NCBI GenBank assembly: GCA_945870025.1
Contig: CAMBQN010000006.1
Location: 1 to 64,000 of the forward strand
From: Akkermansia muciniphila
Lineage (GTDB): Bacteria > Verrucomicrobiota > Kiritimatiellia > RFP12 > JAAYNR01
Direction: 5' to 3'
Length of the DNA stretch: 64,000 nt
Shown here: positions 39,078-60,090 of the stretch, piece by piece
Layout: every line of letters starts with the position of its first letter
Numbering within the stretch: position 1 is the stretch's first letter
Notes under the pieces: generated by a model
Told to the model about the DNA's origin: nothing
What the model saw: only the letters and a program-made list of their open reading frames with translations
Databases searched by the model: none
Made by a program: the position numbers and the translations under genes

Positions 39078-41084
39078 TTATTCCTCCATCAGCTCCCGAA
39101 CGGCCCGCGCAATTCCTTCCACGTCCGGCACCAAAACCTTCTCCAGCGGCGGGCTGTACGGCACCGGTGCAAAGGCGCCATGCAGGCGCTTCACGGGCGC
39201 GTCCAGATCGTTGAAGCCATCGGCGGCGGCGGCGGCGGCAATTTCGCTGGCCACGCTGTAGGGCGCAAAATCCTCGTCCACGATCAGCAGCCGCCCGGTC
39301 TTGCGCACGGACGCCAGGATCGTGGCCGTGTCCAGCGGTGCCAACGTGCGCGGATCAATCAGTTCCACCTCGATCCCTTCGGCCGCCAGCGCCTCGCACG
39401 CCTTCTTCGCCTGATGCACCATCATCGCCAGCGCCACCACCGTCACATCCCGCCCCTCGCGCACAATTGACGCCTTGCCGAACTCAATCTCGTAGTCGCC
39501 CTCCGGCACGGGACACTTGAAGCCGATCAGTTCGCGGTGTTCGAGGAAGAGAACCGGATCGCGGCCGCGCAGGGCGCGCAGGAACAGCCCCTTGGCATCA
39601 TATGCCGTGGACGGCATCGCCACCTTCAAGCCGGGGAAATGCGCGAACATCGAGCCGTAATTGCCCGAGTGATGTGTCGCCGCGCAATGCCCTACGCCGA
39701 TACATCCGCGCAGGATCACCGGCATGTTCAGCCGGCCGTCGCTCATGTAGCGCATCTTGGCGATCTGGTTGATGATCTCACCGACACCGTCGAGGACAAA
39801 GTCGGCAAACATGAAATCAATCACCGGCCGCGCGCCAGCCATGGCGGCGCCGCAGGCCAGGCCCACAAAACCGCGCTCGCAAATCGGCGTGTCACACAGC
39901 CTCACCGGACCGTATTTTTCGAAAAGCCCGGTGGTCGTGGCAAAGTTGCCGCCGCGCGCGCCGATCCCCTCGCCCATCACGAAGATGGAAGGTGCGCGAT
40001 CCATCTCGCCGGACAGCGCCTCGAGCGTGGCGCGGGTGAAATTGATCTCCCTCGTTCCGGCCGGCAATTCCGGCGCGGCCGACGGCGGGTTCTCGTCCAG
40101 AACATGCAACACGGCGGTGACCGGCTCGGGCCAGGGATCGGCCTCGGCCTGCTTGAGCGCGGCCGCCGCAACCTCGGCGCGCTCTTTCTCGATGACCGCG
40201 AGTTCTTCCTCCGTGACCGCGCCGTCCGCGATCAGGCGCTTGCGCAGAGCCTGGATCGGACACTTGGCTTTCCACGCTTCCACGTCCTCCCGCGTGCGGT
40301 AGGTGTAGTCGCCCATCCCTTCGGCATGCGGACGCGTCCGGTAGGTCTTGCACTCGATCAGCGTGGGACCTTCGCCGGCCCGCGCGCGGCGCACGGCCTC
40401 CTCCGCCACCGCGGCCACCGCCACCGCGTCATTTCCATCCACGGCCACGCCGGGGATGTTGTAGGCAGCCGCCCGCTGTGCAATCTCCGGGTTACCGCCG
40501 GAGTAGCGAAGCGGGATCTCGGTTGCGAACTGGTTGTTCTCGCAGACGAACAGCACCGGCAGCTTCCAGATGGCGGCCATGTTCAGCCCTTCGTGGAATG
40601 CGCCGTTGTTGGAGGCGCCGTCGCCGAAGAAGGCGACGGACACCCGGCCGTCCTTCGCCAGCTTGGCCGCGTAGCCCGCGCCGGTGGCCTGAAGGATGCA
40701 CGGACCCACGATGCCGGTGGTGCCCATGAGGCCAATCTCCGGGGCAAAGAGGTGCATGCTCCCGCCACGCCCGCTGGAGCACCCCGTGGCGCGGCCAAGC
40801 AGTTCGGCAATCAGCGCGCGCGGCTCCAGCCCCTTGGCCAACGCATGACCATGGCCTCGATGCGTGCTGAAGACCGGGTCCTGTGGCCGCAGATGCGCGC
40901 AGACGCCAGCCGCAATCGCCTCCTCTCCGATGTAGGTATGGCAGGCGCCATGAATGAGCCCGCGCTGATGCGCGCGGAGCAGTTGTTCCTCGGTCAGCCG
41001 GATCGTCAGCATCGTGCGGTAGAGGTACAGAAGTCCCTCACGGTTCTCGCTCGATGCGTGCTTTGTCGTCTTCTTCGTTGCCAT
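39078..41084 (-). CDS. 2-oxoacid dehydrogenase E1, alpha-beta fusion (second copy)
   Basis: 668 aa; GRGGSMHLFAPEIGLMGTTGIVG, AFFGDGASNNGAFHEGLNMAAIWKLPVLFVCENNQFATEI, then beta part ICERGFVGLACGAAMAGARPVIDFMFADF. Confidence 0.92.
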   Translation of the reverse strand: MATKKTTKHASSENREGLLYLYRTMLTIRLTEEQLLRAHQRGLIHGACHTYIGEEAIAAGVCAHLRPQDPVFSTHRGHGHALAKGLEPRALIAELLGRATGCSSGRGGSMHLFAPEIGLMGTTGIVGPCILQATGAGYAAKLAKDGRVSVAFFGDGASNNGAFHEGLNMAAIWKLPVLFVCENNQFATEIPLRYSGGNPEIAQRAAAYNIPGVAVDGNDAVAVAAVAEEAVRRARAGEGPTLIECKTYRTRPHAEGMGDYTYRTREDVEAWKAKCPIQALRKRLIADGAVTEEELAVIEKERAEVAAAALKQAEADPWPEPVTAVLHVLDENPPSAAPELPAGTREINFTRATLEALSGEMDRAPSIFVMGEGIGARGGNFATTTGLFEKYGPVRLCDTPICERGFVGLACGAAMAGARPVIDFMFADFVLDGVGEIINQIAKMRYMSDGRLNMPVILRGCIGVGHCAATHHSGNYGSMFAHFPGLKVAMPSTAYDAKGLFLRALRGRDPVLFLEHRELIGFKCPVPEGDYEIEFGKASIVREGRDVTVVALAMMVHQAKKACEALAAEGIEVELIDPRTLAPLDTATILASVRKTGRLLIVDEDFAPYSVASEIAAAAAADGFNDLDAPVKRLHGAFAPVPYSPPLEKVLVPDVEGIARAVRELMEE

Positions 41085-41096
41085 GTTGTCTCCCCC

Positions 41097-41389
41097 GTTC
41101 AGGTTTCAGGTGTCCGGTGTCAGAAAACACTCCCCATCTTCATCGTGATCCTTATCTTGGAGCCGCTTGCAAAACCCTGTTTTGCAAGCGGAGTGTTCAG
41201 GTGTCAGGTTTCGGGTATCAGGATGAACCACACGATGTTGCATCTTCCTGAAACCTGAACACTGAAACCTGAAACCGGCGCTTGCAGGGGTTCTGCAAGC
41301 GCCTCCTTGATCTTGATTCGACCGACGCCGGATCAAGCCAACGATCAAGATCATTCCTTTCCTGAAACCTGACACATGAAACCCGAAAC
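41097..41389. repeat. Large composite heptamer-word and hairpin element
   Basis: Heptamer clusters at 41097-41123 and 41193-41221 (minus reading) and 41248-41275 and 41362-41389 (plus reading). Perfect hairpins at 41163-41191 (13 bp), 41277-41303 (11 bp) and 41308-41353 (10 bp). Confidence 0.9.
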
Positions 41390-43326: not shown

Positions 43327-46300
43327 CTACCTCGGCTCAACCGTGATGGAGACCGTGGCCTCCTTGGTATAATTCGTCTGCACCGTACCGTCCGGAGCCT
43401 TGACGGCGTCCCAGGCCTTGAAGGTAAAGGAATCGGGGCCACGATAGGCATCCTTCGACTTGTACTCCAGCGCCCGTGCATAGCAGGTTACCTCGCCATG
43501 CTGCGGCTGAGTCACGATGCTGCACTGCAACGGATCGTCGTCGTCGTCCCGCACAGGCAGCTTGATGCTTGAGGGCATGCCCGATTTGTTGGTTATGCTT
43601 GAGTCCCAGGCCACCGGCAGGCGGTTCGCGCCGCGCGTCACCACGATCGCCAGTCTGTTCGAAATGCCGTCCCCCTTGCCGTCCGTAACAAACAGACTCA
43701 CGAGATTGGTGCCGAACTTCTCGTAGGTATTGGTCACGACCGAACCCGAAGCGGCGCCGCCGCCCCTCTGGTTCTTATCTCCGAATTTCCAGTAGTAGCT
43801 GATCATGTCGCCATCCGCGTCCGTGACCGTCGCCTTGAACTCCACCGTCAATGGCGCGGTGCCGTTCGTCGCCGAAGCAGTCATCGCCGTGATCACCGGC
43901 TCCTGGTTCATGACGCAGACGAGACGAATGCCCGTATCGAAACTGTTAAAGGGTGGCGTGAAATCGCCCAACCAGGGCGACAGGTCGGGCTGACGATACG
44001 CCGCACGGCAATAGGACGGCATCGACAACCAGCTACCGCCACGCATGGCCGGGCGGTCGCCATCTTTAGCTGCTGCGAGATCAAAAAGACGGAATGGATC
44101 GGTTACGGCAGCCGTGCCGAGATCGTTGCTGTACACTTCGCACGTCCACTCCGCGACGTTGCCGATCATGTCGTACAAGCCAAAGGCGTTGGGCTTCTTC
44201 TGGCCCACGGGATGGGTGCCGGAATAGGGGCTGTCGAACTGGCGTTCGCGCCACTTGCGGGTGTCGAAGGCCAATGCATTCGAGGTGCCGCTGTTACCGC
44301 CGTACCAGGCGATTTCGTCCAGTTCCGGCCCGTTATACGCACCCTTGATGGTCAGCGCGCCGTTGTACAGCGCGGTCTTGGAACCCGCACGGCAGGCATA
44401 TTCCCACTGCGCCTCGGTCGGGAGGAGATACCGAACACCGGACCCATAGGCGAGGTCGTTGAGCCTACCGACAAATCCTCCAACGCCCAGGAAACCCACG
44501 TTCTCGACCGGTGCCTGGTCGCCGGCATACTTGAATTTCGAGGGGTTGTTTCCCGTGATCCGCATCCACTGCCCCTGCGTGATCTCGTACTTGCTCATCC
44601 AGAACCCCTTGGTGAGCGTCACGTGATGCAGGGTCTCGTTATCCGAACGGCCGGCTTCGGACGCGGGACTGCCCATGTCGAACTCGCCGGCCGGGATCCA
44701 GACGAACTCGATGCCGGTGTAAGGGGCGGTCCACGGCTTGCCGGCCTCCGGTTTTTCCGGCCCTTCCGGAATCCTGGGCCTGGCATTGCCTTCCAGCGCC
44801 TCGATCGTGCAGTCGGCCCAGTAGAAGGTCTCGGACAAGAGATCATTAAACTTGTGCGTCTCTCCCACCCTGACCGTCGGCCAGGTGAAGCCAATGCCTT
44901 CCTTCCCGCGTCCCAGAATCTGCCGGTCGGGATAGAGTTTGCCGTCCACTTCAGCAACCACAGTGAAATCCCCGCCGCTCAAGCCGTTGCCGCCTATGGC
45001 CATCGCACCGAGCTTGACGCGGAAAGTGCCGTCCCTGGCCGTGCGGACGGTGACCAGCGGCTTAACCTTGCTTTGCTCCATCTTCTCCACGACCGGCACA
45101 CCGCTGCTACCGAAAGCATACACCGGCGCGTCGGCCACGGGCGTGCGCTTGCCGTCCTTCGTCACCCGCCACACGCTACCGACCACGCCACCCTCCGGCG
45201 CGGCGGACGCCGTGAGCAGGCGCATGCCGCGGGCGGGGATGTAGAGCGGACCGAACAAGGTGAACCCGGGCCCCATCTTGCTCGTTTTCACATAGCCACC
45301 GGTAATCGGATCCTGCAGACAGCCGACCACCTTCGCGGCCCGGACCGCCTTGTCCTTCTGCGTCCTGAGCTTGATGTTCACCTTGACGTCTTCATCGCCC
45401 ATCGGAAGCGTTATGATCGACTCCTTGCGACGCCAGTCACTGGCGTCAGGGATGTACGACGTGTCCTGCTCGGCCAGGACGTGGACAAAATTGACCTTGT
45501 TATCGCCGCCGAATAGGAAATCGGGATTCTCGACATACAGAAGCTCGCGAACCGGATGGTCGCTCTCGTTGACGAGCACCATCATCACCTTTCGTCCGGC
45601 GGCTGGCTCGCGATCCGATACCGGGCGCAGGAATAGCGAGGTGCGCACGCGGCCGGCCGGATTCTCCGTGGTGAGCGCAAAGCCCTGCTTGGCGTCGGCC
45701 TCGAATTGCGTGCCATAGCGCACCAACCCAATGCCGAAGTCCTCAGCGCGCCAGTACGGCAGGAACTCGGTCTGGCCGTCGTTCTTGAAGTAGCCGAACG
45801 ATTCCAGGGCGTTGACCACGTCGGCGGCATAGGAGCAGTTCGCCAGCCCGGCGACATCCACGCCGATGTCGTGCACGAGCGCGCGGCCCAGAATCATGTT
45901 GTCCACGGCCAGTGAGCCACCCGGCATGGCCAATGTCCCGCCGTTCGAGCGCAGTTGCGCGGCCAGGGCGGTGTGCGTGGCGGCGAGATACCGGAACAGC
46001 GCCAATGGATAGCGGTCGGCGACGGTGTTTGTCGCCGTCAGAGCGTCGCCGCCGATCGGGCCTTCCAGGATGGCGCGCGCCGCGACGGCTTCGCAGACCG
46101 ACCCGGCGTCAGCCCGGACCAGGAGATTGCTGCCCGTGAGGGTGCCGCGCGATGCCGCATCGAGCGCCGGGGCGGCCGCCTTGTCCGTCCACGGCTGCCA
46201 CTGCTGCTGCCGCCGGTCATCCGCAGGCAAACGGGAAGGATGCACCAGGAGGGTGAAGGCGGCGGTTTGCTCGCCGCTGCGCGGGGACTTGTTGGCGATG

Positions 46301-47106
46301 GCGATCTTCCAGATAGCCGGCCCGTCCTTCTTACGCTCAACCGTCATCGAGGGCTCCTTGCCTCCGATGGCGAAGCCGCCTTCGCCGTTCGGCAGCCAGG
46401 TAAACCCGTGGTCACCGTTGCCCAGGAAGAAATGGCGGATCTGCCCTTTCTGCTTGCTGCCGTCGCCCACGGGAGTGTCACCGTCGCTCCAGACGATGCC
46501 CGAACCCGTGGCCAAGGTCCCATAGTCCGGCGCCAGTTGCTGTTTGCCTGCGAGAAGTACCGCCGGACTGCCCGCGATCACCGTGTCCAGCGGCCCGCTG
46601 AGTTCCATCACCAAGTCGAGCCGTTCGAGATCCGTCCCCTTGGCGTCGTAGGTAATCTGTCCCGTCATGGAACCGTCGTTCGCGTACAACACGCTCAGGC
46701 GGCCCTTCAAGGAACCCGCCTGCCAGGTCGACGTTGCTTCCGTGCCCTTGTCCGTCTTGTTGATTGTGGCCGGCGCATCGGCCTTGGCGGGAATTACGGA
46801 CTTGTCCACCGTCGCATCGAGCCGCATAGGCGACGCCAACTGCGGCCCCCGGCTCAACATTTTCAGCAGGGCGTCCTGCCATTTCTTCTCGGCGCGATAG
46901 GCCAGCGGGATATCATTCGTAAACGCCCGGATCGCCAACTGAGCCGGCAGTCCGGTGTCGTCGAGCGTAAAGATGTGCCGCGGGGTCGTAACCGTGCGAT
47001 TCGACACCGCCACATCCGCGCGCGCCGAAACAACGGCCAAGAACAAGACCGCGACCGGCGCGATTACGTAGTGACAAACGGGATGCATCTTCTTTCTCAT
47101 GCTCAT
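43327..47106 (-). CDS. Secreted multidomain protein: DUF6067-like module + FGE-sulfatase (SUMF1-type) + PKD + Ig-like
   Basis: Start MSMRKKMHPVCHYVIAPVAVLFLAVVSARA (signal peptide). FGE-like FVWIPAGEFDMGSPASEAGRSDNETLHHVTLTKGFWMSKYEITQGQW...MRGGSWLSMPSYCRAAYR; PKD APLTVEFKATVTDADGDMISYYWKFGDKN. Confidence 0.85.
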   Translation of the reverse strand: MSMRKKMHPVCHYVIAPVAVLFLAVVSARADVAVSNRTVTTPRHIFTLDDTGLPAQLAIRAFTNDIPLAYRAEKKWQDALLKMLSRGPQLASPMRLDATVDKSVIPAKADAPATINKTDKGTEATSTWQAGSLKGRLSVLYANDGSMTGQITYDAKGTDLERLDLVMELSGPLDTVIAGSPAVLLAGKQQLAPDYGTLATGSGIVWSDGDTPVGDGSKQKGQIRHFFLGNGDHGFTWLPNGEGGFAIGGKEPSMTVERKKDGPAIWKIAIANKSPRSGEQTAAFTLLVHPSRLPADDRRQQQWQPWTDKAAAPALDAASRGTLTGSNLLVRADAGSVCEAVAARAILEGPIGGDALTATNTVADRYPLALFRYLAATHTALAAQLRSNGGTLAMPGGSLAVDNMILGRALVHDIGVDVAGLANCSYAADVVNALESFGYFKNDGQTEFLPYWRAEDFGIGLVRYGTQFEADAKQGFALTTENPAGRVRTSLFLRPVSDREPAAGRKVMMVLVNESDHPVRELLYVENPDFLFGGDNKVNFVHVLAEQDTSYIPDASDWRRKESIITLPMGDEDVKVNIKLRTQKDKAVRAAKVVGCLQDPITGGYVKTSKMGPGFTLFGPLYIPARGMRLLTASAAPEGGVVGSVWRVTKDGKRTPVADAPVYAFGSSGVPVVEKMEQSKVKPLVTVRTARDGTFRVKLGAMAIGGNGLSGGDFTVVAEVDGKLYPDRQILGRGKEGIGFTWPTVRVGETHKFNDLLSETFYWADCTIEALEGNARPRIPEGPEKPEAGKPWTAPYTGIEFVWIPAGEFDMGSPASEAGRSDNETLHHVTLTKGFWMSKYEITQGQWMRITGNNPSKFKYAGDQAPVENVGFLGVGGFVGRLNDLAYGSGVRYLLPTEAQWEYACRAGSKTALYNGALTIKGAYNGPELDEIAWYGGNSGTSNALAFDTRKWRERQFDSPYSGTHPVGQKKPNAFGLYDMIGNVAEWTCEVYSNDLGTAAVTDPFRLFDLAAAKDGDRPAMRGGSWLSMPSYCRAAYRQPDLSPWLGDFTPPFNSFDTGIRLVCVMNQEPVITAMTASATNGTAPLTVEFKATVTDADGDMISYYWKFGDKNQRGGGAASGSVVTNTYEKFGTNLVSLFVTDGKGDGISNRLAIVVTRGANRLPVAWDSSITNKSGMPSSIKLPVRDDDDDPLQCSIVTQPQHGEVTCYARALEYKSKDAYRGPDSFTFKAWDAVKAPDGTVQTNYTKEATVSITVEPR

Positions 47107-47120
47107 GATCTCTCCTCGCA

Positions 47121-47160
47121 CTGACACCTGAACACTAAACACTAAACACTGAACACTGAT
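47121..47160 (+). repeat. Heptamer-word array
   Basis: CTGACAC CTGAACA CTAAACA CTAAACA CTGAACA CTGAT, exact 7-bp period, filling the gap between two genes. Confidence 0.88.
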
Positions 47161-47161
47161 C

Positions 47162-50100
47162 CTACTGCCTGCACTCCGCATACAGGATCCGGTAGTCGTG
47201 ATACGGCACGAACACCGGACCATACCGTTCGGCCTTGTCACCGGCCCGCAGAATCAGCGCGTCGGTCTCGAAGTCCCGCAGCGCCGGCGTGACCGCGGCC
47301 TTGGCGTCCGCGCTCCAGGCGGCCTTCAACACGTCCGGCACTTGCTTGAGCGCCACAACCTCGCCGCCGCGCAGGGAATTGGCACCGCCGAGAAGGCGCT
47401 TCGAATCCAACAGGTTCAGCGGCAGCTCGATATCGGCGTCCGATTCGTTGAGAATCACAAAGATCGCCTGGTACCCCTTGCCGTTGTCCAGCGGGCGGCG
47501 GTAGACCGTCACACGCGCCTTGCTCTCCTCGTTCGGCTTGTCGCCCAGGCGCACCAGCGCGTCGTTGCGCCAGAAGGGGAGTTTCTCGACGTCGTCGTCG
47601 CGGAAGAACCCGAACCTCGCCAGGCGGCCCAGCAGCCGCAGGCCCTGGTCAATATCCTGGATATGTCCCCCGGGACCGCCCTGGTACGCCACTGACGATG
47701 CATCGCGCGTGACACCAAAGTCGTGCAGCAACGCCAACCCCAGTTTCTGCCGGTCGAACCGCGGGTCGTCGCCCGGTCCCACCGGGGACGCCTGCGGCGC
47801 CAGGGTCGTGATGACGCCGGCATAGTTCATCGCCATCGTCCGGTACAGCGCGTTGGGATAGAGCAGGATCAGGTCCACGTCATACGAAGGGGCATTCGGT
47901 CCGACCCCGACCGTCTTCATCATGACGGTGTTCCACAGGAACGACTCCAGCAGCCGGCCCGCGCCATTGGCCTTGGCCTGCTGGCGAGGCGACACGTTCT
48001 CCACCATCTGCACGCGGGCCAGCCGCTTGTACAGGTCCCGCATGGGGAAGACCGTGAAACCCGGCTGCCACGGCAATTCATTCGTGCCGACCTGCTTCAG
48101 GGGCCGCAGATAGGCGTCTCCCATGGCCAGATTCATGGATTGCGAGATCGGCGAATAGTCGGCCACCAGCCAGCCTGTCCGCCGGCCGTAGCCGATCAGT
48201 CGGCTCAGGTAGAACGCGCCCTTCTCCTCGAACAGCCGGTTCATGTCCGGCAGGTTCAGCGCGGCGCCGCCGCCGCTGATACCATAACGGTAATAGGGGG
48301 GCATGTCGTTGCGCCACGCAGTGCGCTGTTCGTCCGGAATCTCCATCGCCGCGCCCGCCGCGTCCCGCCACCAGCCCCGCAGCCGATCATCGTCAATCAT
48401 GTAGGTAAGCAATTCGGAATTGTCGGACCAGTTGGCCGACGCGTGAATCTGCATAAACGCAAACATGTTGCCCACCGTGTAATGCCAGGCGTGCTGCCGG
48501 AAGTTCTCCGGCTTGGGCTTCGCCGGATGAGTGAGGATGGCGAAATCGATCGTGCGCCGGCCCGTGACCTCGGCCGGATGGTTCACAAACGCCACGCGCC
48601 AGGTCACCTCCCCGTTCTTGTTGCGCTCCAACTGCATGCTCGATCCGTCCCGATCCAGGATCCAGCCGCGATCGCTGTCGCAGTAATACGACCAGCCGCG
48701 GTCGGCGCTCCCGAACCAGAAGGAGGGCACAAACCTCGAATAGAATAACTCCAACCGCGTCATCGTGCTGTCCCACACCACGCCGGGCTTGTTCGGCAGA
48801 CCGCACTCGCCGCGGTCGGAGTTCACGTCTCCCATGCCCAGGCCGGTGTCGGAAACCGCCAGATCCACGATCCCGGCCACGTCCGTCACCAACTCCAGGC
48901 GGTCAATCTTGACCGGCGTATCGCCACCGTAGCGCAGAGATGCGCGGAACGAGCCGTCGCAGTCGTAGCGAATCTTGAGTTCGGCCGGCATCGAGCCGAT
49001 CTCCAGAGTGGAGGCATACTCGATCTCGCTCTTCCCGGTCCGTATCGCCTTGGCCGGCGTCACCACCTTGGCCTTCACCGGCTTGCCTCCGACCACCGCT
49101 TCCAGGCGCATCGGGGCGCGGAACTGCGCGCCGCGGCCGATGGTCTGCAGGACGTCAGGCGTCGCCTGCCCGCCCGTGCGCAATTCCAGCGGCAGTTCCC
49201 GCGGGTCGGGCACGATCGCGATCTGCGCCGGCAAACCGGACTCGTCAATCGTGAAGCGATGTTTCAGCGTCTCGAAACCTGTCGCCGTCACGCGGATCGG
49301 CGTGAACGGCTCCCAGACCTCGTCCATGAGCCCAACCTTGTTGTTCATCCACGGCGCCATCTGGAAGCTGTCGATCTTGCGAGTGGCTGCGGGCCGCTCA
49401 TTTTGCGTAAACATCAGGCGCGGATTCAGTTTGGTCGTCGCTTCAATCTCGGGCAACACGGTGAACTTGTCGGCACGCGTGCCCGTCGTCTGGGCAACGC
49501 CGCCATGATTGAGCTTGATGAAGGGCTCCTTCTCCGTCTGCTCGCCGACGATCTTCATGTTCTCGTCGAACATGTACGCGGTGACGCTGTACACCTCGCC
49601 GGGCACCAGGTTGCTGGCAATCACGTCAAACGTCGCGAAATTGCCGATCACCGGCGCCTTGAACTCATGGACGTCCTTCTCATCGCCATCCACGATGTTC
49701 CTGACCACCAACTGCGCCTCGACAGCGGTCTTCACCTCTTCTTTCACGCCCACGATCCCGCGGTCGAGTACGGCCATCAGGCGCTTGGTGTAGGGGGACA
49801 CCTCGACCCGGAAATCGAAGAAGGGGATACGCTCCGGACGCAGGCTCTTGATCACGTCCAGACGCCGCTCGCGGAAGCTCTTCTTGGGACTGCCCGCCGC
49901 GCCGCCGTCCATCAGGTGGGTTTTGATCAGGCGGGTGCAGAACAAGGTCTTCGACGGAGTGCCAAAGCTACGCACGTCGAACCAGAGCACGTTGCCATCG
50001 AGCGTCATTTTGGGGTTCGAGTGGCGCAACCGCAGTTTCTTCGTCTCGCCCGGTCGCAGTTGGACGATCCCATTGGGGGTTTCCGGGGAATTGTAGCTTG

Positions 50101-51082
50101 AATAAATCTGCTCTTGCGCACTCTCGACGTGAAAGCCAAGCCGCACCGTTTCCGAGCGGGTGTTGTGATTCTTCAGCGTCACCTGGACATCGATCTGGTT
50201 GTCCATGATCCGGCCCATGTCGTTGATCTGGATGACCGGCGACTTCGAATCGAAAATGAACTTGCTCTGCATGGTCTCCCAGTCGGAGTCATCGAAATTG
50301 TTGAAGAACGCGCCGTTGCCTCCGATGCCGCGCGCGCAATAAAAGCGGTAGGTCGTGCCGTCTGCGGGAGGAATTTGGACCAGCGGACGGCCGATCTCGT
50401 CCTTACCGTCGTAGCCCGCGTAACGCAGCGCCGTTAGCGGGATCTTGTATTCGATCACCCAGGCCTTGTCGTCCGCAACGGAGCGGATCTCCGCTCTGGA
50501 GGTGTACTTGAAATCCGAGCCGCCGGCTGTGCTGTAGAGCCAATCGCAGATTGTGCCGATCGGGTTGACATCCCAGCGCAGAAGCCCCAGCTTCTGGCCC
50601 AGTTTCAGGTCTTCGACAGGACGTATTTCCAGCTCGGTGTGATCGTCGTTGAGCATGCCGTAGAGCGGATGTTGCAGGGTGTCCTGGAAACGGCCGCGGG
50701 CCTTGAGCCAGGAACCCTCGGGATAGACCGGCGACATCTTGCAGAAATACAGAAACTCATGGTCGTAGCCGACGTACAACTTGACCTGCGTCTGATGCGG
50801 GGCCAGGCAGGTGAAGATGCCGTTGTCGATGTCGTATCGGAAGGCCGACAGCGCCGAGGCGTCATCCCACTCCCCCGGCGACATGACGCCATCAATCGTG
50901 GGCGGTTTGGCCATGAGAGGCACGCGCAGAATCGGCGTGTCAACCTTGCTCGCCTCCTCGTAGGATTTGGGCACTTCCACGGCCTCCTGTGCCCTGGCCT
51001 GGATCACACCGGCGGCAATCAGCGCAACCGCAAAACCGGCATACGCCGGCAACCGCTTCGTTTCACTTCCCGATTTCAGCAT
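47162..51082 (-). CDS. Secreted DUF6067/GH123-like protein with N-terminal CBM9/DOMON-like domain
   Basis: Start MLKSGSETKRLPAYAGFAVALIAAGVIQARAQ; PPTIDGVMSPGEWDDASALSAF; KHRFTIDESGLPAQIAIVPDPRELPLELR; WFGSADRGWSYYCDSDRGWILDRDGSSMQLER. Confidence 0.7.
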   Translation of the reverse strand: MLKSGSETKRLPAYAGFAVALIAAGVIQARAQEAVEVPKSYEEASKVDTPILRVPLMAKPPTIDGVMSPGEWDDASALSAFRYDIDNGIFTCLAPHQTQVKLYVGYDHEFLYFCKMSPVYPEGSWLKARGRFQDTLQHPLYGMLNDDHTELEIRPVEDLKLGQKLGLLRWDVNPIGTICDWLYSTAGGSDFKYTSRAEIRSVADDKAWVIEYKIPLTALRYAGYDGKDEIGRPLVQIPPADGTTYRFYCARGIGGNGAFFNNFDDSDWETMQSKFIFDSKSPVIQINDMGRIMDNQIDVQVTLKNHNTRSETVRLGFHVESAQEQIYSSYNSPETPNGIVQLRPGETKKLRLRHSNPKMTLDGNVLWFDVRSFGTPSKTLFCTRLIKTHLMDGGAAGSPKKSFRERRLDVIKSLRPERIPFFDFRVEVSPYTKRLMAVLDRGIVGVKEEVKTAVEAQLVVRNIVDGDEKDVHEFKAPVIGNFATFDVIASNLVPGEVYSVTAYMFDENMKIVGEQTEKEPFIKLNHGGVAQTTGTRADKFTVLPEIEATTKLNPRLMFTQNERPAATRKIDSFQMAPWMNNKVGLMDEVWEPFTPIRVTATGFETLKHRFTIDESGLPAQIAIVPDPRELPLELRTGGQATPDVLQTIGRGAQFRAPMRLEAVVGGKPVKAKVVTPAKAIRTGKSEIEYASTLEIGSMPAELKIRYDCDGSFRASLRYGGDTPVKIDRLELVTDVAGIVDLAVSDTGLGMGDVNSDRGECGLPNKPGVVWDSTMTRLELFYSRFVPSFWFGSADRGWSYYCDSDRGWILDRDGSSMQLERNKNGEVTWRVAFVNHPAEVTGRRTIDFAILTHPAKPKPENFRQHAWHYTVGNMFAFMQIHASANWSDNSELLTYMIDDDRLRGWWRDAAGAAMEIPDEQRTAWRNDMPPYYRYGISGGGAALNLPDMNRLFEEKGAFYLSRLIGYGRRTGWLVADYSPISQSMNLAMGDAYLRPLKQVGTNELPWQPGFTVFPMRDLYKRLARVQMVENVSPRQQAKANGAGRLLESFLWNTVMMKTVGVGPNAPSYDVDLILLYPNALYRTMAMNYAGVITTLAPQASPVGPGDDPRFDRQKLGLALLHDFGVTRDASSVAYQGGPGGHIQDIDQGLRLLGRLARFGFFRDDDVEKLPFWRNDALVRLGDKPNEESKARVTVYRRPLDNGKGYQAIFVILNESDADIELPLNLLDSKRLLGGANSLRGGEVVALKQVPDVLKAAWSADAKAAVTPALRDFETDALILRAGDKAERYGPVFVPYHDYRILYAECRQ

Positions 51083-59247: not shown

Positions 59248-60090
59248 CTATTCTGAATACTGAATACTGGCTTCTGAATACTGCGTTTGCAAAACCGACG
59301 AAGGAGGTTTTGGAAACGACTCCACCGTCAGCCCCTCGCCGGGTCGCACCAGCATGGCCTTCACGTCGGGGCACATCGTTGCACACGCATGGATGAAGCC
59401 GGCTGGATCGCCCCCGCCCTGCTCGGCCAGCGTCCAGAAATGACACGGAATCGCGATGCGGGGCTTCGCCTCGGATACCAGCCGGGCCGCGTCCACGTGG
59501 TTCATGTTGCCGAACACGCCGTTGATCGCCGGCAGCACCACGTCGGGGTTCAAGTCGTAAAGCGGCTTGAACAGGACCGGCCGCCACGACGTGTCGCCTG
59601 TGGCCATCACGCGGACGCCGCCGAAATCGAGAACCAGCGCCACGGCGCTCGGCGCCAAGTCGCCGTGATCGGCCGGCACGGTGTGCACCACGAGATCCCC
59701 CAGATCGTGGCGGCGGTTCGATTCCAGCAGGACGCGCCGCGCCGCAGGCACGCCAGCGGCTGCCAACCCGGCCAGGCAACCGGCGGGAGCGGCAAATCGA
59801 CAGGCGGGATTGTTTCGCGCGATCACGGGAATGGCGTCCGGATCGAGATGATCCGTGTGCTCGTGCGTCAGCACCACCCAGTCCGCCTCGACCTCCTCCG
59901 GACGCAGCGCCGGAAGCGACAGGCGTTTGAACCCGTGCAGCCGCTCGCACGCATCGGACAGGTACGGATCCAGAAAGATCCGCCGCCCCGCCGGCGTCCG
60001 AAAGGCAAACCCCGCCTGCCCCAGCCAGTACAGCCGCACCCCGCCGACGGGAACATCCGCCTGCCTAAAATCATCGGTCCATTCGCTCAT
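59248..60090 (-). CDS. MBL-fold metallohydrolase (UlaG-like)
   Basis: 280 aa; YWLGQAGFAFRTPAGRRIFLDPYLSDACE, VLTHEHTDHLDPDAI, VMATGDTSW, AIPCHFW. Confidence 0.85.
   Translation of the reverse strand: MSEWTDDFRQADVPVGGVRLYWLGQAGFAFRTPAGRRIFLDPYLSDACERLHGFKRLSLPALRPEEVEADWVVLTHEHTDHLDPDAIPVIARNNPACRFAAPAGCLAGLAAAGVPAARRVLLESNRRHDLGDLVVHTVPADHGDLAPSAVALVLDFGGVRVMATGDTSWRPVLFKPLYDLNPDVVLPAINGVFGNMNHVDAARLVSEAKPRIAIPCHFWTLAEQGGGDPAGFIHACATMCPDVKAMLVRPGEGLTVESFPKPPSSVLQTQYSEASIQYSE
59253..59317. repeat. Heptamer-word array plus hairpin, coding for the MBL protein C-terminus
   Basis: CTGAATA CTGAATA CTGGCTT CTGAATA CTGCG (59253-59285); gtttgcaaaacc (59285-59296) / ggttttggaaac (59306-59317), 11/12 pairing. 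Confidence 0.85.

Follow-up and report, generated by a model that had tools for sequence, protein, structure and literature searches.

A heterogeneous TTCAG heptamer array in a bacterial gene junction: a probable mutable spacer with dispersed relatives

The reason for heptamer arrays between bacterial genes is an old question, and it arises anew at a junction in the 64,000-nucleotide stretch of DNA from an uncultured bacterium analysed here (the window). Two co-directional genes are separated by 55 bases (47107-47161), 40 of which (47121-47160) read CTGACAC CTGAACA CTAAACA CTAAACA CTGAACA CTGAT on the plus strand. The issue is whether such an array is a fixed control site or a mutable spacer. 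The answer favored here, and considered probable, is a slippage-grown, heterogeneous heptamer array, tolerated as a mutable spacer between the stop codon and the ribosome-binding site (RBS). It would do no more than vary the distance between the two, with no recognition function of its own.

The junction and its array

The features of the junction include:
47162..51082 (-), upstream gene, GH123_N-like (PF19543), with stop codon TAG at 47164-47162; 21.9 bits against a Pfam cut-off of 22
47121..47160 (-), heptamer array of 5.7 units with coding-strand consensus TTCAGTG; units ATCAGTG TTCAGTG TTTAGTG TTTAGTG TTCAGGT GTCAG
47111..47118 (-), Shine-Dalgarno GAGGAGAG, ending at 47111 and identical in the congeneric genome G001
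43327..47106 (-), downstream gene with a GH123_N-like N-terminal part, FGE-sulfatase (PF03781), PKD (PF18911) and Big_9 (PF17963) domains; ATG at 47106-47104

On the coding (minus) strand, the junction reads TAG-G-ATCAGTG TTCAGTG TTTAGTG TTTAGTG TTCAGGT GTCAG-TGCGAGGAGAGATC-ATG. A single base separates the stop codon from the array, and 14 bases, which include the Shine-Dalgarno, separate the array from the ATG. The initial annotation, which counted five-and-a-half heptamers over 40 of 55 bp and saw room left only for an RBS, is exact on both points by direct reading of the sequence. It also held that the open reading frame extension upstream of MSMRKK is the array in translation; the in-frame extension reads SVQCLVFSVQVSV-RGEI-MSMRKK, which is the translated array plus the RBS, and a codon-usage gene caller (a simple codon model, used for all gene calls) places the start of the downstream gene at 47106. 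The flanking genes are likewise of the types it named, with the upstream match falling just under the Pfam cut-off; PF19543 is presumably the former DUF6067. Part of the upstream protein shares ~30% identity with the N-terminal part of the downstream protein. The gene pair has three more copies in the same genome, two of which share contig C10, and is carried by only three genomes.

The periodicity of the array stands out from its surroundings. Tandem Repeats Finder (TRF) reports a period of 7 with 5.9 copies (score 52), and the lag-7 self-similarity (27 of 33 positions) is the top value of the 64-kb window. Other short lags give 7-12 matches, and lag 14 gives 21. Across 180 windows simulated with Markov models of orders 1, 3 and 5, the lag-7 score never exceeds 24. 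The junction RNA has no extra structure compared to shuffled sequences (z -0.37), by which a structured leader was rejected, and no known RNA families were found at the array junction.

Related arrays in the genome and its relatives

The genome contains dozens of arrays related to this one, a point missed by the initial annotation. In this draft assembly (2.76 Mb, 59 contigs, 81% complete), TTCAGNNTTCAGNNTTCAG has 148 matches compared to 0 for the same pattern reversed, and GTGTTYAGTGTTYAG has 20 compared to 0. Five contigs chosen regardless of the repeat, which provide a sample of 516 kb (91% coding) rather than a census, hold six TTCAG arrays of at least three units, all six intergenic; other permutations of TTCAG in this sample mostly yield no arrays, and the best of them yield four. 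Strict heptamer arrays are fewer than hexamer arrays. The TTCAG heptamers occur in two settings: (i) simple arrays in gene junctions and (ii) arrays within a palindrome-ended element of ~146 bases. Both are found elsewhere in the window:
41099..41123 (+), short TTCAG-family array with 3.6 copies of TCAGGTG, upstream of a gene that ends at 39078
41160..41305 (-), one copy of the dispersed element with palindromic ends, its inner arms made of the same heptamers in inverted orientation
59253..59283 (-), TTCAG-family array TATTCAG, 4.4 copies, directly ahead of a Shine-Dalgarno and ATG

The genes downstream of the arrays are of mixed function, with housekeeping ilvB and ilvN among them. The ilvB RBS is directly preceded by a 19-unit heptamer array (C12 80928-81058, L201), and the ilvB-ilvN junction has a 4-unit array. 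Some arrays seemingly lie inside genes; in at least two cases (C24 and C26), this reflects a gene call that extends across the array to a start further upstream. Tandem repeats of other unit lengths are also noted: hexamers (TAATCN/GATTAN, CCTCGT/GAGGAC) and octamers (GGTGACTG) form inverted intergenic arrays, that is, hairpins with tandem-repeat arms (L299-L318; e.g., C8 8562-8655, C1 24313-24393, C8 34239-34328 and, in the window, 1687-1752).

Comparison of orthologous junctions reveals how readily the arrays change. In G001, of the same genus, the flanking proteins are 74% and 70% identical and the RBS and start region are the same as in the window; the junction reads TAG-GAG-GTGTCAG-GTGTCAG-TGG-GAGGAGAGATC-ATGAGCATGAGAAAGAAGATG, with two units, both of the GTGTCAG type. 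In G008, of the same order (flanking proteins 73% and 72% identical), the array is absent. The progression from six units here to about two in the same genus and none in the same order, with the RBS and start unchanged in the congener, bears out the initial view that the repeat is dynamic and the site not fixed. Conservation of the array over distant genomes, which would speak for a fixed site, is not what the empty G008 junction displays. Paralogous junctions of the gene pair vary similarly: the two on contig C10 are near-identical and recent but differ greatly in their arrays, and the C5 paralog lacks one altogether.

The copy-number comparison across sister genomes that the initial annotation proposed was run at this junction and at seven further orthologous junctions, found by searching with joined pieces of the neighboring proteins, and both counts and units differ. 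The ilvB-ilvN junction has 4 units here, 7 in G001 and none in G002, G008 and G006; the FGGY kinase junction 5 units compared to 6, and none in G002; the HK-RR junction 3 compared to none; the ABC-FGE junction 3 compared to 3 with other variable bases; the Fd-Hcp junction 4 compared to none in G001 and G002; the C5 junction 5 compared to ~5 with other variable bases (G008); and the C14 junction 5 compared to 4 (G008). Six junctions, that of the window included, have an ortholog in G001, where four still carry an array; G008 keeps the C5 and C14 arrays, and G002 has no array in the four orthologous junctions tried. Where both orthologs have an array, the orientation is the same, while the two or three variable bases and, mostly, the copy number differ. 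The core A and G are invariant in all 27 units of the ortholog arrays, which were found without selection by pattern, and the NN positions are the most variable.

Beyond these relatives, TTCAGNNTTCAGNNTTCAG is present in 119 of 387 genomes of the phylum, with a patchy distribution and lineage-specific NN bases. Co-directional simple arrays of the own genome lean to the sense orientation (~10 compared to 3 antisense), which is only a trend, while those of G040 are mostly antisense (8 compared to 1); a fixed-polarity RNA motif was rejected by this comparison. The G040 arrays (L237-L247) reach 35 units, mix TTCAGTG with TCCAGTG and in several cases lie 3-36 nt from start codons. In G012, of the same order, it is the reversed pattern that is abundant (15 and 27 matches), and the heptamer family of this genome is thus a different one. 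TTTCAGG heptamers, 7-8 in number, also fill an intergenic gap of a small mobilizable plasmid from Salmonella (NZ_CP064913.1, L319 400-455).

Explanations for the array

The favored reading of a mutable spacer would operate as follows. The array would be a local outgrowth of the TTCAGNN heptamer family scattered over intergenic DNA. Replication slippage and unit-to-unit copying, proposed from the comparison of species, would add, remove and homogenise units, and selection would discard the variants that reach coding sequence or the RBS. The array may survive because the space between the stop codon and the Shine-Dalgarno tolerates changes in length, the repeat is weakly structured, and the RBS and reading frames stay intact. 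Its role would be at most that of a spacer of variable length separating the two co-directional genes. As related species differ in both copy number and sequence, a mutable spacer is likelier than a fixed control site. A fixed signal fits poorly with orthologous junctions that lack an array, with the reversed orientation in G040 and with the mixed gene functions. Two observations count against this explanation: the arrays persist in the same junctions and orientation in sister species (twice in another family), and their persistence outlasts the alignability of the remaining junction sequence. Pure slippage, moreover, is expected to duplicate complete units, but the arrays retain the core TCAG and drift at the remaining three bases; selection could therefore act on the core, and its retention speaks for some recognition.

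The same persistence also counts for the next explanation, which is possible but unlikely: a translational control site, in which TCAG repeats of the leader bind an RNA-binding protein or ribosomal component, or set the spacing for translational coupling, with copy number tuning expression. The position of the array between stop codon and RBS, the constancy of the core A and G against drifting NN bases in ortholog arrays found without the pattern, and the junctions and orientation kept by sister species are consistent with such a role, and a similar proposal is made for the TAACTGA repeats (PMC4679880). It is opposed by orthologous junctions that lack arrays though their genes stay intact, by the reversed G040 orientation, by downstream genes of no common function, and by the normal Shine-Dalgarno that follows the array, unlike in the Maribeggiatoa BOGUAY genome.

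The palindrome-ended element raises the question of a shared origin. Its ends are palindromic (GAGGCGCTTGCAAAACC and GGTTTTGCAAGCGGCTC), the own genome has 78 GCTTGCA...TGCAAGC palindromes, and the copy at 41160-41305 folds far better than shuffled sequences (z -8.95). The only RNA-family match on the element, MIR1511, is sub-threshold, far below the gathering score, and is read as chance. The arms have the fixed order TTCAGGT TTCAGTG TTCAGGT TTCAG. Among the matches listed, the exact 26-mer TTCAGGTTTCAGTGTTCAGGTTTCAG occurs in large numbers in Desulfobacterota metagenome-assembled genomes (MAGs) and also in Victivallales, Lentisphaerae, Planctomycetaceae and Wenzhouxiangella records; one archaeal MAG contig among them may be a binning error, and viral carriage of the 26-base composite yielded no match. 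A CCTGACAYC arm lies within 70 nt on the 3' side of the 26-mer in 58 of 78 sites and on the 5' side in none, counted over all listed records, Desulfobacterota and others (L088-L167; e.g., L090, L121 and L137). A slightly looser CCTGACAYC form follows 17 of 20 such sites of the own genome on the 3' side and none on the 5' side. This one-sided partner arm was not selected for and suggests a shared element, a polar hairpin common to the phylum of the own genome and Desulfobacterota. The palindromic ends of the own element recur in Lentisphaerae bacterium RIFOXYA12_64_32 (L137), which makes an origin of the window on the Lentisphaerae/Kiritimatiellae side of Verrucomicrobiota probable.

A broader proposal, speculative and rather improbable, is a cross-phylum system in which the polar hairpin (sense arm TTCAGGT TTCAGTG TTCAGGT TTCAG, short linker, antisense arm CCTGACAYC...) would spread among Desulfobacterota, the phylum of the window and others by transfer or a dedicated recognition protein, seeding single-arm arrays like 47121-47160 that are kept since TCAG is recognised. 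If the hairpin shared with Desulfobacterota is homologous across phyla, it points to a source of such arrays. A link of the element to RAYT transposases was also considered and rejected: the own genome has three Y1_Tnp genes (G000; C1:136216-136551 (L085), C2:105164-105496 and C25:23819-24037), and an element-like end lies close to just one of them, next to other palindromes. The Y1_Tnp gene L085 is set amid other palindromic repeats (GCAATGCCCCAACGGGGC and CAACCCCGTTGGGGTTG), like a RAYT with its REPs.

That the window array is itself a stray or decayed arm of such an element, inserted in the junction and trimmed, is improbable. While the arms carry the same heptamer family and the element is multi-copy, no palindrome or inverted partner occurs within 120 nt of 47121-47160 (at best 8 of 14 bases are complementary), the array is of the TTCAGTG type with TTTAG units rather than the fixed order of the arms, and the congener junction has only GTGTCAG units. 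Phase variation, in which slippage in a contingency repeat would switch a surface-type downstream gene on and off, is very improbable. A short tandem repeat ahead of a gene with PKD and Big domains, varying in copy number between species, has the appearance of such a switch; however, the array is outside the reading frame, a promoter-like site overlapping it was not found, and sister arrays precede the housekeeping genes ilvB and ilvN. Chance periodicity or an assembly artefact has a negligible likelihood, as the simulations never reach the observed score and, although the genome is a 59-contig draft, no support for an artefact was found and a related array occupies this junction in another genome that was assembled separately.

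Comparison with known repeat systems

The value of the probable mutable spacer as a study system lies in paired genomes in which the genes and start sites are the same while array length, units or presence differ, such that effects on expression can be separated from slippage and from selection on the core. The closest known parallels are the heterogeneous heptamer repeats of Xanthomonas, GGGAATC/(GGGANTN)n, and Nostoc, GGGGA(C/T)T, which have a fixed core with variable positions and are dispersed and mostly intergenic (PMC4692102). The Xanthomonas heptamers often closely follow the upstream gene, often form inverted pairs and are associated with no functional gene class; the same genes flank them in two species, with length and sequence varying (PMC4692102). 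The TTCAG arrays similarly have 7-nt tandem units of conserved core and variable positions, many dispersed and mainly intergenic copies (148 matches compared to 0 reversed; 6/6 intergenic), and sister-species junctions kept with variation (4/6 G001 orthologs). They differ in unit (TTCAGNN, not GGGANTN) and in phylum. The window array also has no run of three G; without G-tracts, no quadruplex is expected, unlike for the Xanthomonas/Nostoc subtype. The cyanobacterium Calothrix PCC 7601, cited in PMC4692102 for three different tandem heptanucleotides in its genome, is a further likeness at the level of that brief description.

The TAACTGA direct repeats of marine Beggiatoaceae, cyanobacteria and Bacteroidetes are intergenic, have 2-6 units upstream of start codons, change in 7-nt steps between close strains and are patchy over phyla (PMC4679880). 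The window array resembles these as an intergenic heptamer array ahead of a start codon, and the reverse complement TCAGTTA also contains TCAG. By contrast, its plus-strand units are CACTGAA/CACTAAA, its coding strand has TCAG rather than CTGA, and its units are more variable. It does not take the place of the RBS either, as a normal Shine-Dalgarno lies between array and ATG. REPINs and REPs with RAYT transposases (PMC3116915) are comparable to the palindrome-ended element of the window, while the array at 47121-47160 differs in having no palindrome. Although an earlier description of TTCAG heptamers may exist, TTCAGNN is, against the open-licence papers searched, a new unit of a kind already known from Xanthomonas and Beggiatoaceae.
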